64,000 nt of DNA, from positions 124,001 through 188,000 of the forward strand of contig BEIQ01000003.1 of the NCBI GenBank assembly GCA_002898275.1, written 5' to 3'. A program made the position numbers and the translations under genes. The notes under the pieces were generated by a model that did not search any database, was not told the origin of the DNA, and saw nothing but the letters and a program-made list of their open reading frames with translations. This DNA comes from a bacterium HR40 (lineage in GTDB: Bacteria > Pseudomonadota > Alphaproteobacteria > Geminicoccales > Geminicoccaceae). Shown here piece by piece: positions 59,769 to 64,000 of the stretch (within the stretch, counting starts at the first letter, position 1; the number at the start of each line of letters is the position of its first letter).

Positions 59769-60737
59769 TCAGCCGCCAAAGGAGCGGGCGAGCAGCTCCG
59801 GATCGACGCCTCCTGCCCGCCGACTGCGACCGCTCTCGAGGCTGGTCACCACCACCTCGGCCGGCGAGAAGAGCATGCGGTCGATGCGGTAAAAATCGCG
59901 GCCCGCCGCCTCGAAGAGTTCGCGGAACGGCCGTCCATAGTCGGGCGAAGCGGAACTCGGCAGCCGGTCGGCCAGCGCCAGCGCCTCCTCCTCGGGGCCG
60001 GCGACGAACAGCTGCACCGTACCGCCGAACAGGATGGCATCATTGGTACGACCCATGGCCTCGAGGAAGTCGGGCGAGGGCGGCGGCAGCGGGGCCCGGC
60101 CGATGCCATCGACGATGCGCGCGAGCGGGAAACCCAGCTCGTGCACCTTGTGGAGCGCGACTTCCAACACTCGCGCCACGATTTGCACGGAGCCCGCGAG
60201 CGAGGTCGTGGGCGTGAGCACGAAGGCCAGCGCTTCCGGTGGGAGGCCGCACGCGGCCGCCACCTCGGCGACGAGCGGATCGGGCGGCGGCCGGTCGGTC
60301 TCGAGCACGAAGATGCCGCGCGTGGCGTGGTCACGGTAGCCGAGCTCGGCGAAGAGCGGCTCGCGCGCGGCAAGGGCCCGCCCCGGTCCCGAGGCCATAG
60401 CGAACCACCGCCCATGGGAGAGCGACCAGCCAGCGTATTGCGCGAGCAGGCAGGCGCTCACCGGCTCGCTCGCGTGCACGCACACCGAGAAGGGCGAGAG
60501 GGTCGCCGGCGAGCCGGGCGCGAAACGGACGACCCCGAGCCCCCCCATGCACAGTTCGGCAATTCGCCGCCCAGCCTCGAGCCCGCCACGGGCCTCGATG
60601 CCGGCATCCACCACGAGCGCTCCGGTCGGCGAACGGTACAGGCGAAGCCGCAGGGCCTCGGCATCGGCAACGAGCCTCTCGAGGAGGGGCACAGCGCGGG
60701 CACCCACCGAGGGCCAATGGCCAGCGGGCGCCGTCAT
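59769..60737 (-). CDS. mch: Methenyl-tetrahydromethanopterin cyclohydrolase
   Basis: A 322-residue Mch that hydrolyses methenyl-H4MPT to formyl-H4MPT in the formaldehyde-oxidation path of methylotrophs. Conserved blocks seen are AELCMGGLGVV, CLLAQYAGWSLS, FAMASGPGRALAA, PTTSLAGSVQIVARVLEVAL and MGRTNDAILFGG. Its ATG overlaps the ATP-grasp gene by 4 bases. With mtdB it supplies two successive steps; Fae and the formyltransferase/hydrolase complex are not in the window. Confidence 0.93.
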   Translation of the reverse strand: MTAPAGHWPSVGARAVPLLERLVADAEALRLRLYRSPTGALVVDAGIEARGGLEAGRRIAELCMGGLGVVRFAPGSPATLSPFSVCVHASEPVSACLLAQYAGWSLSHGRWFAMASGPGRALAAREPLFAELGYRDHATRGIFVLETDRPPPDPLVAEVAAACGLPPEALAFVLTPTTSLAGSVQIVARVLEVALHKVHELGFPLARIVDGIGRAPLPPPSPDFLEAMGRTNDAILFGGTVQLFVAGPEEEALALADRLPSSASPDYGRPFRELFEAAGRDFYRIDRMLFSPAEVVVTSLESGRSRRAGGVDPELLARSFGG

Positions 60738-61876
60738 GTCGGCTGCTCCGTGGCAAACGCTCCGGCGGCCCGCAGGCGCGCGAGCAAGAGCTCGCGCCGC
60801 CGGCAGACCTCTCGCCGGGCCACCGATGCTTCCGACGCGGTGGCGACCACCGTGGCAACGGGCCCGTTGCGGGCGATCGCCGTGCCACCGGGAGTGCGGT
60901 CGCCGGCCCATCGCGGCCACCGGAAACCATCCGGCATGACACAATCCTCCGGAACGAAGACGATTTCGCTCGCCGCCGCCCGTCGCGGCTCGGGCGCCTG
61001 CCGCGGGAGAATCCCCTCCACGGCCCGTCGGTGCAGTGCCAGCATGCTCGCACCGGTCGCGAGCTCCAGCGCCTCGAGACTGGCGGTGGGGCGCGCATTG
61101 AGCTCGAGCACCCAGATGTGCTCTCCGTCGAACAGCGCATCGAGGCTCGCGAACCCCCTGACCCCGAAATGCACGGCGAGAGTGGCCGCCGCCACTCGCA
61201 GGGCTTCGCTGGCGGCGTCCGGCAGGTCTTCGGGCAGGCTCACCCCCGAAAAGCGGAAGCCGCGCCCCGGCGCCGTCCACTGGCGGGTGATGGCGAGCGG
61301 CACGACTCCGCGCCCGTCGCAGAGCAACAGCAGGGACACCGCGATACCGGGAACCTGGCGCTGGAAGTACCACTCCTCCGTCCCGACCGGAACCTCCGCC
61401 GCCGGTCGCACGTGTCCCCCGCCCGCACCACCGCGGCGCTTGGCGAGCCAGCCCGCAGGGTGGGAGGGCGGATCGGCGCGCGTTTCCGGGTGCCGCAAAC
61501 CGAAACGATGGCAGGCCTCGGCGAAGAGCGAGGGATCGAGCGTGCGGGCGAAAGCGGTCGGAGGCGTACCGATGAGCGGGCGGCCTTCGGCGAGGGCCGC
61601 AAGGAGCTCGGGATCGCGCTCGAAGCCACTGCCGTAGACGAGAGGCACGGATGGCGGCGCAAGCCCGCGGGCGAGCGCGAGCAAGGCCGCGGGTTCGAAT
61701 CGCCAGTCGGAGCGCAGCGGAGCTTTCGCCCAAGCCACCGCGGCGACGCGAGTGTCGAGGTCGGCGAAGGCGTCGATGACCGCAGGTCGCAGGCCGCCGC
61801 GGCGTGCCGATCGAGCCATGGCGCGAGCCGAAAGGGCGCAGATCAGGAGATCGGGCGGCTCACGCGCCGCCGACAT
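60734..61876 (-). CDS. ATP-grasp protein of the H4MPT gene cluster
   Basis: A 380-residue protein with an ATP-grasp-like core: KRRGGAGGGHVRPA looks like the glycine-rich loop, and WVLELNARPTASLEAL holds the Glu/Asn magnesium ligands. Proteins of this kind occur in the H4MPT clusters of methylotrophs (the Orf7/OrfY group, from memory) and are thought to act in cofactor synthesis, perhaps adding a glutamyl-like group. The exact reaction is unknown. It overlaps mtdB by 17 bases upstream and mch by 4 downstream. Confidence 0.78.
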   Translation of the reverse strand: MSAAREPPDLLICALSARAMARSARRGGLRPAVIDAFADLDTRVAAVAWAKAPLRSDWRFEPAALLALARGLAPPSVPLVYGSGFERDPELLAALAEGRPLIGTPPTAFARTLDPSLFAEACHRFGLRHPETRADPPSHPAGWLAKRRGGAGGGHVRPAAEVPVGTEEWYFQRQVPGIAVSLLLLCDGRGVVPLAITRQWTAPGRGFRFSGVSLPEDLPDAASEALRVAAATLAVHFGVRGFASLDALFDGEHIWVLELNARPTASLEALELATGASMLALHRRAVEGILPRQAPEPRRAAASEIVFVPEDCVMPDGFRWPRWAGDRTPGGTAIARNGPVATVVATASEASVARREVCRRRELLLARLRAAGAFATEQPT

Positions 61877-62765
61877 GGCGACGGGCCTCGGCGAAGGCCT
61901 CGTCGATGCCGATGCGGCGGCGCGGTTCGGCGTCGCGCATGGAGGCGAGGAGGGCGTGTTCGGTCTTGAACTTCACATTGCCGACGGCGAGGGCACCGAC
62001 GCCTACGGCGGAGGTGCCCTCGATCGGCTTGCCGTCGGCGAACGGGTCGACCCCCTCGATGCCGGGCGGCGGCACCGCGTTGACGTCGATGGCAACGAGG
62101 AGCTTCTTGGCCACCTGGAGATGACCCTTCGAGAGGATCTGGGTACCGGCGCGACCGGCTGCGAGGACCACCTCGGCGCGTTCGAGAATGGCGAGCTTCT
62201 TGGCGTCGTCGCTGCCGTCCGCCGGTTCGAGGGCGACTCCGAAGCGCTCGCCGAACTGGTCCGCCCTGAGCGTCACCCGCTGCAGTCCATCATAGCCGAC
62301 GAGGATCGCCCGGGCTCCGGCCCGCGCGGCGATCAGCCCGGCCGCGCTGCCCACCGGTCCGGTGGCACCGAAGACGGCGACCGTAGTGCCGCCGAGCGCG
62401 CGCCCGAGCTTCGCGAGATAGCGCTCGGCTACCGCGACCATGGCAGCGGCTGTGGTGAAGGCCCCGGACGGATCGGCCATCACCGATATCTCGAAGTGCG
62501 GCGGGACCATCGCCTTTTTCGCCGCTTCGAACATGTCGATCGCCAGGATCGGATCGCGGCCGCCGATCAAGAGCGCGGTGCGCCGGCCATCGCGCGGCGA
62601 GCGGGAGAAGATCGCGTCCTGGACGAGCCCGGTGACCTCGCGCAGATCGACATCGGTATAGGGCGCCACCACATCGAAGCCGGCGTCGACCGCCATGTTG
62701 ACGTCGAACGGGCTCACGTGTTTGAGGGGCGACACGAAATGGAGGATGTAGCGCTTCTCGGTCAT
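61860..62765 (-). CDS. mtdB: NAD(P)-dependent methylene-tetrahydromethanopterin dehydrogenase
   Basis: A 301-residue MtdB that oxidises methylene-H4MPT to methenyl-H4MPT with NAD+ or NADP+. SPLKHVSPFDVNMAVDAGFD and VQDAIFSRSPRDGRRTALLI match MtdB closely; VAVFGATGPVGSAAGLIAA is the nucleotide loop, and LLVAIDVNAVPPPGIEGVDP and VGVGALAVGNVKFKTE close the fold. ATG at 62765 is chosen to match the family N-terminus. It is the first gene of the mtdB-ATP-grasp-mch operon and diverges from the CitG-like gene 63 bases away. Confidence 0.95.
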   Translation of the reverse strand: MTEKRYILHFVSPLKHVSPFDVNMAVDAGFDVVAPYTDVDLREVTGLVQDAIFSRSPRDGRRTALLIGGRDPILAIDMFEAAKKAMVPPHFEISVMADPSGAFTTAAAMVAVAERYLAKLGRALGGTTVAVFGATGPVGSAAGLIAARAGARAILVGYDGLQRVTLRADQFGERFGVALEPADGSDDAKKLAILERAEVVLAAGRAGTQILSKGHLQVAKKLLVAIDVNAVPPPGIEGVDPFADGKPIEGTSAVGVGALAVGNVKFKTEHALLASMRDAEPRRRIGIDEAFAEARRHVGGA

Positions 62766-62828
62766 CTTCCCGGAATCCTGTGTGGTGGGGCGCCCCGCGC
62801 CGCGCTTTCCTAGCCAAGGCACCGGCGG

Positions 62829-63701
62829 ATGCAAGGGGGGGAAAGCCGGAGTGCGGTGGCGGCTGCCGCCTTTCTCGCCGCGTGCCGGCTCGAACTCGCT
62901 GCCCCCAAGCCGGGCAATGTGCACCGTTTCGCTGCCGGGCACGGCATGACGGTGGCGGATTTCGAGGCCAGCGCCCTCGCCGCCGCTCCGGCGATCGCCG
63001 CCGGGCAGCCGGGGGTAGGGCTGCGGATCTTGGCCGCGGTCGAGGCCACCCGTCGCCGCGTCGGCCAGAACACCAATCTCGGCATCCTCCTGCTCTGCGC
63101 CCCGCTCGCCGAGGCGTTCGTGATCGAGGGGGCGCTTCCCGACCTCGAGCGCGCCACCCAGGAGGTGCTAGCCCGCCTCGATCGTACCGAGGCGAGCCAC
63201 GCGTTCCAGGCGATCCGGCTCGCCAGCCCGGGTGGCCTCGGCAGGGTCGCGCGCCACGATGTCGCGGCCGAGCCCGAGGTGTCGCTCGTCGAGGCGATGC
63301 GCGAGGCAGCCGGACGCGATCGCATCGCCTGGAACTTCGCCCACGGCTTTTTCGACATCTTCCGCCGCGGGCTTCCTTGGTGGCGCGAGGCACAGCGGAG
63401 CGGGCGCGAGGCGACTTGGGCTTGCGCTCAAGTGTATCTGCACTTTCTGGCGACCGTTCCCGACACCCACATCGCCCGCAAGCACGGGCATGCGATGGCC
63501 GAGACCGTTCGCCGAGAGGCCCGACCGCTCTGCCGTCGGCTGCGCCAAGCGCGAAAACCCGACCAGCTGCTCGACCAGCTCCTCGCCTTCGATGCCGCGC
63601 TCAAGGAAAAAGGGCTCAATCCGGGGACGAGCGCCGATCTCACGGTGGCGACGATCTTCGCGAGCCTCCTCGAGGATGCCGGCGGAGTCCGTCCAGCCTA
63701 G
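62829..63701 (+). CDS. Triphosphoribosyl-dephospho-CoA synthase-like protein (Orf5 of H4MPT clusters)
   Basis: A 290-residue protein of the CitG/MdcB fold. AACRLELAAPKPGNVHRFAA and RVGQNTNLGILLLCAPLAEA are its main signatures, and PDTHIARKHGHAMAETV is conserved late in the family. In methylotrophs this relative (Orf5) is linked to H4MPT synthesis rather than to citrate lyase or malonate decarboxylase, neither of which is present here. ATG at 62829 has no clear ribosome site; GTG at 62856 after GGAG is an alternative. It ends by overlapping the SoxYZ-like gene tail to tail by 4 bases. Confidence 0.82.
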   Translation: MQGGESRSAVAAAAFLAACRLELAAPKPGNVHRFAAGHGMTVADFEASALAAAPAIAAGQPGVGLRILAAVEATRRRVGQNTNLGILLLCAPLAEAFVIEGALPDLERATQEVLARLDRTEASHAFQAIRLASPGGLGRVARHDVAAEPEVSLVEAMREAAGRDRIAWNFAHGFFDIFRRGLPWWREAQRSGREATWACAQVYLHFLATVPDTHIARKHGHAMAETVRREARPLCRRLRQARKPDQLLDQLLAFDAALKEKGLNPGTSADLTVATIFASLLEDAGGVRPA

Positions 63702-64000
63702 GAGGTCGGCCCGATCTGCCAGCGTTCCTCGAACCTGCGGCCAGAGCTGTCCTCGACCACAGCGGTCAGGGTTCCGGGCTTCGCGGCGAGGAAATCGAAG
63801 ACGAAGGTCGGGTCTTCGGATAGGGAAATGTCTCCTTCGACGAAGAGGAGCGGCTTGCCGTCGAGCCGGATGTCCACCTTGGTGACATAATCCGGCGGGA
63901 TCCAGTTGCGGGTCACTTGGTCGATCTGCATACCGGTGTAGTTGGGATGGCCGATCTTGAGCTTGGCGCGGAGCACCCGACCGGGCTCGAAGGGATCGAG
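63698..64000 (-). CDS. Quinoprotein dehydrogenase-associated SoxYZ-like carrier, C-terminal part
   Basis: About 100 residues are seen, open to the window edge (upstream codons read LDPFEPGR), so the N-terminus is outside. KIGHPNYTGMQIDQVTRNW, FVEGDISLSEDP and TFVFDFLAAKPGTL are typical of the SoxZ half of the fused SoxYZ-like carriers found beside PQQ alcohol dehydrogenases. A GTG at 63976 could wrongly be taken as a start for a free SoxZ. Its role with the dehydrogenase is not established. Confidence 0.75.
   Translation of the reverse strand, partial: LDPFEPGRVLRAKLKIGHPNYTGMQIDQVTRNWIPPDYVTKVDIRLDGKPLLFVEGDISLSEDPTFVFDFLAAKPGTLTAVVEDSSGRRFEERWQIGPTS

Follow-up and report, generated by a model that had tools for sequence, protein, structure and literature searches.

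The stretch analysed here, hereafter the window, comprises 64,000 nucleotides of bacterium HR40 (positions 124001-188000 of contig C3, BEIQ01000003.1; genome 2,892,134 bases, 8 contigs), and its right end holds genes of tetrahydromethanopterin (H4MPT)-linked one-carbon metabolism next to a SoxYZ-like carrier gene that runs past the edge (Table 1). An earlier note on this DNA had read mtdB, an ATP-grasp gene and mch as one coupled operon, with a CitG-like gene diverging from it and the carrier gene ending against the latter, and had predicted a pyrroloquinoline quinone (PQQ) alcohol dehydrogenase just beyond the edge. This layout was recovered in full. The three minus-strand frames overlap at 60734 (mch/ATP-grasp) and at 61860-61876 (ATP-grasp/mtdB), which fits one coupled operon and suggests co-transcription; the CitG-like gene lies divergent on the plus strand, 63 bases from the likely mtdB start, and the carrier gene converges on it with a 4-base overlap. 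The dehydrogenase is there as well: in fragment L002 (C3:182001-202000; L002 position = window position - 58000), a xoxF gene starts 4.4 kb beyond the edge, separated by 281 bases from a divergent operon of coiled-coil, metallo-beta-lactamase-fold (MBL) hydrolase and carrier genes. Within this operon the MBL stop and the carrier ATG are 5 bases apart and the coiled-coil stop overlaps the MBL start, consistent with co-transcription. The window ends inside an ordinary methanol-oxidation gene island of a known, well-described kind.

The nearest solved relatives of the xoxF product are the lanthanide XoxF structures 6oc5 (989 bits, near full-length) and 6dam (895 bits), whereas the other methanol dehydrogenases listed reach at most 668 bits. 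The protein has vicinal cysteines and the motif WDYDGINE, which includes the second lanthanide aspartate (WDxDG.NE). This second aspartate marks lanthanide use, and its role as a marker fits here because the best structural match is itself a lanthanide XoxF. In contrast to the 6oc5 system, xoxF does not lie beside its cytochrome-like partner and XoxJ, which are found at C1:969 kb.

Only the C-terminal, SoxZ-like third of the carrier falls inside the window; the whole gene encodes a SoxY-SoxZ fusion (PF13501 at 62-172 and PF08770 at 200-287), to which the description in the earlier note had to be extended. The protein scores over the TIGR04557 cut-off, has the fused architecture and the GGC cysteine of that family, and is encoded close to an MBL and a PQQ dehydrogenase. 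Its cysteine, invariant in 30/30 aligned carriers, sits in an internal GGCSAP arm. In a structure model (mean predicted local distance difference test score, pLDDT, 89.7), two beta domains matched SoxY (2ox5) and SoxZ (1v8h) by Foldseek and by sequence profile. The conserved cysteine falls in the less confidently modelled segment that joins them. This position corresponds to the C-terminal arm of free SoxY, and the segment may be a swinging arm that has become a linker. By eye the N-terminus resembles a signal peptide, and carrier and MBL would probably act in the periplasm.

To relate the carrier to its possible partners, we profile-searched 289 genomes of the class (first draw) for the carrier, mch, the PQQ alcohol dehydrogenase (ADH) and other genes. 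TIGR04557 was over cut-off in 26 of them; two (G072 and G165), in which the match spans a stop codon and represents split SoxY and SoxZ, were left out, leaving 24. ADHs were classified by active-site motif (133 proteins from 76 genomes), with WDxDG.NE plus [MP]CCD defining the lanthanide type. At most four candidates were scored per genome, so further ADHs may exist, and nine of the weakest matches (two each in G063 and G277, one each in G192, G145, G226 and G208, and a partial one in G196) were excluded. Locus L010 was dropped ahead of the counts. Sixteen ADHs were assigned by hand as lying beside a carrier, that is, no more than about 10 kb from it and on its contig. All 16 were of the lanthanide type, compared with 9 of the 117 others. 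Counted by genome among those with an ADH, a lanthanide-type enzyme was present in 20/22 with a carrier versus 4/54 without (Fisher 2e-12, in a test that ignores kinship). Carrier genomes contained an ADH in 22/24 cases, an MBL in 22/24 (E up to 1e-40) and mch in 9/24, and 14/24 gave no other SoxYZ-type match.

The association with H4MPT behaved differently. Across all 289 genomes, mch was present in 11, namely 9/24 with a carrier versus 2/265 without (kinship ignored), an association that would be expected if both go with XoxF; the two mch genomes without a carrier, G247 and G287, gave no ADH match at E 1e-100 either. Fifteen of the 24 carrier genomes have no mch, and among the 17 XoxF genomes the carrier was present in 8/8 with mch and in 8/9 without, on which grounds we rejected H4MPT as a predictor of the carrier. 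Carrier presence follows the lanthanide-type dehydrogenase rather than H4MPT.

We also scanned named loci, taking the best 80 of at least 582 carrier loci, a set that is biased to close relatives and includes 45 loci with full flanks. These contained an MBL in 75, c5 (a small gene described below) in 61, an ADH in 46 and xoxJ in 45 of 80 cases, the MBL being on the carrier's strand in 75/75 and within 2 kb of it in 74. The readable ADH motifs were lanthanide-type in 41/43, with three further sequences incomplete; both exceptions are from Bradyrhizobium, where the ADH is 7 to 10 kb off. Loci with the content MBL-carrier-XoxF-c5-XoxJ were seen in Vibrionaceae (Enterovibrio, Grimontia and Photobacterium; L086, L087, L090, L093, L094, L101 and L113), with no H4MPT gene in the available flanks.

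Gene identities and order, the conserved cysteine, the matching fold and the link to lanthanide-type ADHs together make the carrier a likely accessory of the lanthanide-type dehydrogenase. In such a system, the window would encode the cytoplasmic H4MPT branch, in which MtdB and Mch would oxidise methylene-H4MPT and the products of the ATP-grasp and CitG-like genes probably help to make the cofactor. The periplasmic part, mostly beyond the window, would be supplied by the coiled-coil-MBL-carrier operon that diverges from xoxF. The carrier cysteine, on a flexible arm that links two Ig-like domains, would bind a small group, and the MBL hydrolase may then take the bound group off. As for the load, which would block the PQQ site if left in place, a sulfur species seems the likeliest, with an aldehyde as another option, a guess that we offer tentatively.

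Several observations weigh against assigning the carrier to the lanthanide-type dehydrogenase. Carriers stand without an ADH in the fetched flanks of 34/80 named loci, and of 18/45 with full flanks; in four of these, full-length Azospirillum loci, the carrier has H4MPT genes next to it instead. Among the class genomes, G111 and G160 have a carrier and show no ADH, G107 and G264 have a carrier but their ADHs lack the strict motif, and four genomes encode a lanthanide-type ADH but no fused carrier, which can therefore be dispensable. One of these four is the single-contig family member G112 (L262), which has XoxF, c5 and c11 whereas no fused carrier scored over cut-off, a hint from nature of dispensability. 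Homologues in Pseudomonas putida gave minimal phenotypes, though without rare earths, according to section 15 of PMC12997753.

The joint role with H4MPT that the earlier note had proposed from gene closeness can be given a concrete form: the carrier thiol would trap periplasmic formaldehyde, which would be oxidised on the carrier, and a glyoxalase II-like MBL would free formate, unloading Fae and H4MPT. The closeness itself is real and recurs. Mch and carrier genes lie within 15 kb in 5/9 genomes with both (G000 3.0, G048 11.8, G196 13.7, G204 10.6 and G273 10.6 kb), where random placement expects 0.12; G000 and G196 belong to one family, and G204 and G273 likewise share one. Of the remaining four genomes, G058, G111 and G195 have the two genes on separate contigs and G238 has them megabases apart. 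At least one H4MPT gene occurs in 25/80 named loci (at least two in 21/80; 13/45 of those with full flanks), and in seven loci, six from Azospirillum and one named Roseomonas (L081, L083, L084, L085, L088, L097 and L099), MBL and carrier come after seven H4MPT genes, and the available flanks, incomplete in L083, L088 and L097, contain no ADH. The MBL also has a weak similarity to hydroxyacylglutathione hydrolase (21.7 bits, cut-off 200). Selection for a shared one-carbon island would give such linkage too, however, and as a reason for the carrier the joint role is at odds with the carrier genomes that have no mch and with the small effect of mch within XoxF genomes, making it improbable.

We regard as similarly unlikely the proposal, put forward in PMC12997753, that the dehydrogenase owes the formation or repair of its vicinal disulfide to carrier and MBL. 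The Cys-Cys pair is present in 16/16 ADHs beside a carrier, and passages of the same paper describe rhodanese and thioredoxin-like neighbours in other species. The pair also occurs in 99/117 ADHs not beside a carrier, however, and therefore does not explain where carriers occur; we rejected the vicinal cysteines as the reason for the carrier's distribution. Finally, a thiosulfate-oxidation SoxYZ, although suggested by the SoxY and SoxZ domains and folds and by thiosulfate-oxidation genes in the genome, is very improbable and was rejected on model scores far below cut-off (58.5 vs 125 bits for SoxY, 44.1 vs 76 for SoxZ), on a cysteine that is internal (GGCSAP) rather than in a C-terminal GGCGG, and on separate soxY (GGCGG end), soxZ and soxB genes elsewhere.

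The earlier note had called the function of the carrier unsettled, which holds for its chemistry; the family is named, as is that of the MBL (TIGR04559, quinoprotein relay system zinc metallohydrolase 2), and the association of both with PQQ dehydrogenases is already known in print. As in other such systems, both proteins are over cut-off here and adjacent, near a PQQ alcohol dehydrogenase. Named members of this kind are PP_2677/PP_2678 of P. putida and SoxYZ-S4 of lucinid symbionts; here, in contrast, the operon starts with two coiled-coil genes, an H4MPT operon lies next door and xoxJ has its place on a different contig. The two coiled-coil genes are long; family member G267 has one similar gene in the same place, and its carrier-MBL-coiled-coil operon is divergent from xoxF too. 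PMC12997753 describes PP_2666/2677/2678 and META1p1703-1705 of Methylorubrum extorquens AM1; the functions it proposes are to form disulfides, to stabilise the cofactor or to shield PQQ from sulfur. Elsewhere, a symbiont fused SoxYZ adjoining xoxF and fdh is described, with protection from thiosulfate suggested (PMC11237559), as are Sox(YZ)-SoxH genes adjoining that of a PQQ enzyme in Hyphomicrobium (PMC11582611) and a soxH within a xoxF5 cluster (PMC5934484). PMC3797975 reports a lone SoxZ-like protein, Snov_1060, in Starkeya, numbered not far from xoxF (Snov_1035-1038) and one fae (Snov_1050). In the portions of the literature that our search covered, no published contrast of the lanthanide motif with H4MPT for the carrier turned up. 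Compared with thiosulfate-oxidation SoxYZ, which shares the SoxY- and SoxZ-like domains with a cysteine arm, the carrier differs in being fused, in its internal arm, in having no sox oxidation genes adjoining it and in coexisting with a separate soxYZ.

Two further genes, c5 and c11, of unnamed families, appear to travel with XoxF. In this genome they adjoin each other beside fae on contig C1. The c5 product is a secreted-looking protein of about 115 residues with invariant C38, C52, C54 and C114; in the named loci c5 lies within 2 kb of the carrier in 53/80 cases, often adjoined by c11. In the first draw, strong c5 matches (E 8e-12 or better; weaker ones in G124, G206 and G247 were dropped) were obtained in 18/289 genomes, comprising 16/17 XoxF genomes and 2/272 others (G022 and G111), and none in the 7 ExaF-type genomes. 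The lone XoxF genome without c5, G007, is cut off by a contig end within the carrier gene, towards the side that bears c5 in its sister G204. G022 has an ADH fragment with a XoxF-like motif at a contig end, whereas for c5 without XoxF in G111 we have no explanation. In a second draw of 269 phylum genomes, with three XoxF/c5 genomes common to the first, XoxF was defined by at least 61% identity to this genome's XoxF, again with at most four ADH candidates scored per genome. Here c5 was present in 27/27 XoxF genomes versus 1/242 others (Fisher 3e-36, many genomes being close kin), in 17 of 165 genera; in the single other genome, G485, the contig ends at xoxG and xoxJ, just where xoxF would come next.

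Structure comparison gave c5 no convincing relatives. Its model is all-helical (mean pLDDT 86.6); Foldseek returned nothing at E 0.001 or better, and the best VIA-align Z, 4.7, is in the range that the tool notes as chance for helical proteins, results that establish the fold neither as new nor as known. The best E of its profile against PDB sequences was 0.18. Three c5 and two c11 proteins found no family in Pfam at E 0.05, nor did the c5/c11 pairs of L041 (E 0.0001) and L261 (E 1e-20) in NCBIfam. Gene order was more informative. In G238 (L261) eleven genes run xoxF, xoxG, xoxJ, YkuD-like (by eye), folK, folP, c5, c11, pqqE, pqqCD and pqqB, an order that fits META1p1740-1750 of strain AM1, with orf6 = 1746 and orf7 = 1747, and by which c5 and c11 correspond to orf6 and orf7; passages of PMC7391723 give the tags 1740-1742 and 1746-1750 and do not name 1743-1745. 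Compared with the G238 proteins, this genome's c5 product shows 54% identity over 98 residues and its c11 product 25% over 266. With lanthanum, AM1 grew at 0.16 per hour as wild type, at 0.03 with orf6 deleted and at 0.08 after a 9 h lag with orf7 deleted, and the passages of PMC7391723 report a need for orf6/orf7 only with lanthanum. We lean towards c5 and c11 being an obligate periplasmic accessory pair of XoxF that forms, with carrier and MBL, a maturation or maintenance machinery, c5 acting on XoxF itself, in metal or PQQ loading or in the XoxF-cytochrome step.

Table 1. Positions of the genes discussed (plain numbers are window positions)
Gene	Position	Strand	Identification and remarks
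mch, methenyl-H4MPT cyclohydrolase	59769..60734	-	TIGR03120, 374 bits vs cut-off 229; PF02289
ATP-grasp gene of the H4MPT set (cluster c16)	60734..61876	-	PF02655, 50 bits; homologues beside mtdB/mch in other loci
mtdB, methylene-H4MPT dehydrogenase	61860..62765	-	PF09176 (Mpt_N), 113.6 bits; likely ATG 62765; stop at 61860; open frame extends to 62942
CitG-family gene	62829..63701	+	PF01874, 236.8 bits
SoxYZ-like carrier, C-terminal part	63698..64000	-	TIGR04557; continues past the window to C3:188507
Carrier (fused SoxY-SoxZ), whole gene	L002:5698-6507	-	TIGR04557, 248.3 bits vs cut-off 140; likely ATG start
MBL hydrolase	L002:6513-7427	-	TIGR04559, 355.9 bits vs cut-off 280
Coiled-coil gene 1	L002:7424-8245	-	generic coiled-coil matches only
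Coiled-coil gene 2	L002:8341-10128	-	generic coiled-coil matches only
xoxF, lanthanide-type PQQ methanol dehydrogenase	L002:10410-12206	+	TIGR03075, 748.8 bits vs cut-off 480
DUF3280 gene	L002:12298-12783		after xoxF
pqqB-like gene	L004:6241-7167		named by eye
c5	L004:8402-8752	-	contig C1, beside fae; unnamed family
c11	L004:8784-9584	-	contig C1, adjoins c5; unnamed family
pqqE	C1:574070
fae	C1:580322
mptG, beta-RFAP synthase	C1:803698		TIGR00144
xoxJ	C1:969615
Methanol-type (xoxG-like) cytochrome	L060:9051 onward (C1:969 kb)		148 bits, below cut-off 162; directly upstream of xoxJ
fhcD	C4:109655		fhcA and fhcC beside it
soxY, soxZ, soxB	C1:374 kb (L061)		soxZ and soxB over cut-off; soxY ends GGCGG

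Gene identities in the window rest on curated NCBIfam models over cut-off, except those of the ATP-grasp, mtdB and CitG-like genes, for which Pfam domains scored over their gathering scores; for mtdB no NCBIfam equivalog model was over cut-off, leaving the Pfam domain as its identification. The CitG-like protein scored far below the CitG/MdcB equivalog models (best 48.1 vs 272.3 bits), including that for triphosphoribosyl-dephospho-CoA synthase, and from its sequence it is a family member with no substrate assigned. CitG enzymes attach ribose phosphate, and the protein may serve a ribosyl-transfer step in H4MPT synthesis that has not been assigned. Homologues were seen in 13/80 named loci, all 13 with at least two other H4MPT genes; our literature search found no paper naming both CitG and methanopterin. 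As in H4MPT-linked one-carbon islands of Azospirillum and in L044 and L048, mtdB, ATP-grasp, mch and CitG-like genes stand together here, whereas the fae, fhc, mptG and methanofuran-type genes are found dispersed on contigs C1 and C4.

The earlier note had inferred a methylotroph and listed genes to look for in the next 10-20 kb. Within that distance we found xoxF; fae, fhcA, fhcC, fhcD (fhcB was not searched for), mptG, pqqE and xoxJ are elsewhere in the genome, xoxJ on another contig than xoxF. With mch and mtdB (Pfam only), the fae, fhc and beta-RFAP synthase genes make up an H4MPT one-carbon module, in agreement with methylotrophy. Two more PQQ-dehydrogenase matches were found in the genome, one of them below cut-off. 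PQQ dehydrogenase, fae and fhc genes are thus all present, and the last gene of the window is no true SoxZ by its score. Given the genes at C1:374 kb, the organism may oxidise thiosulfate besides methanol.

The link of c5 and c11 to XoxF is the part most worth a bench test, and through it orf6 and orf7, in the papers found known from single-strain mutants, gain a wider identity. This locus adds one more carrier-hydrolase case to the question of how the lanthanide methanol dehydrogenase is loaded and kept active. The comparison also turns the loose label 'PQQ-associated' into a testable statement, namely that the carrier-hydrolase pair follows lanthanide-type enzymes and not H4MPT.

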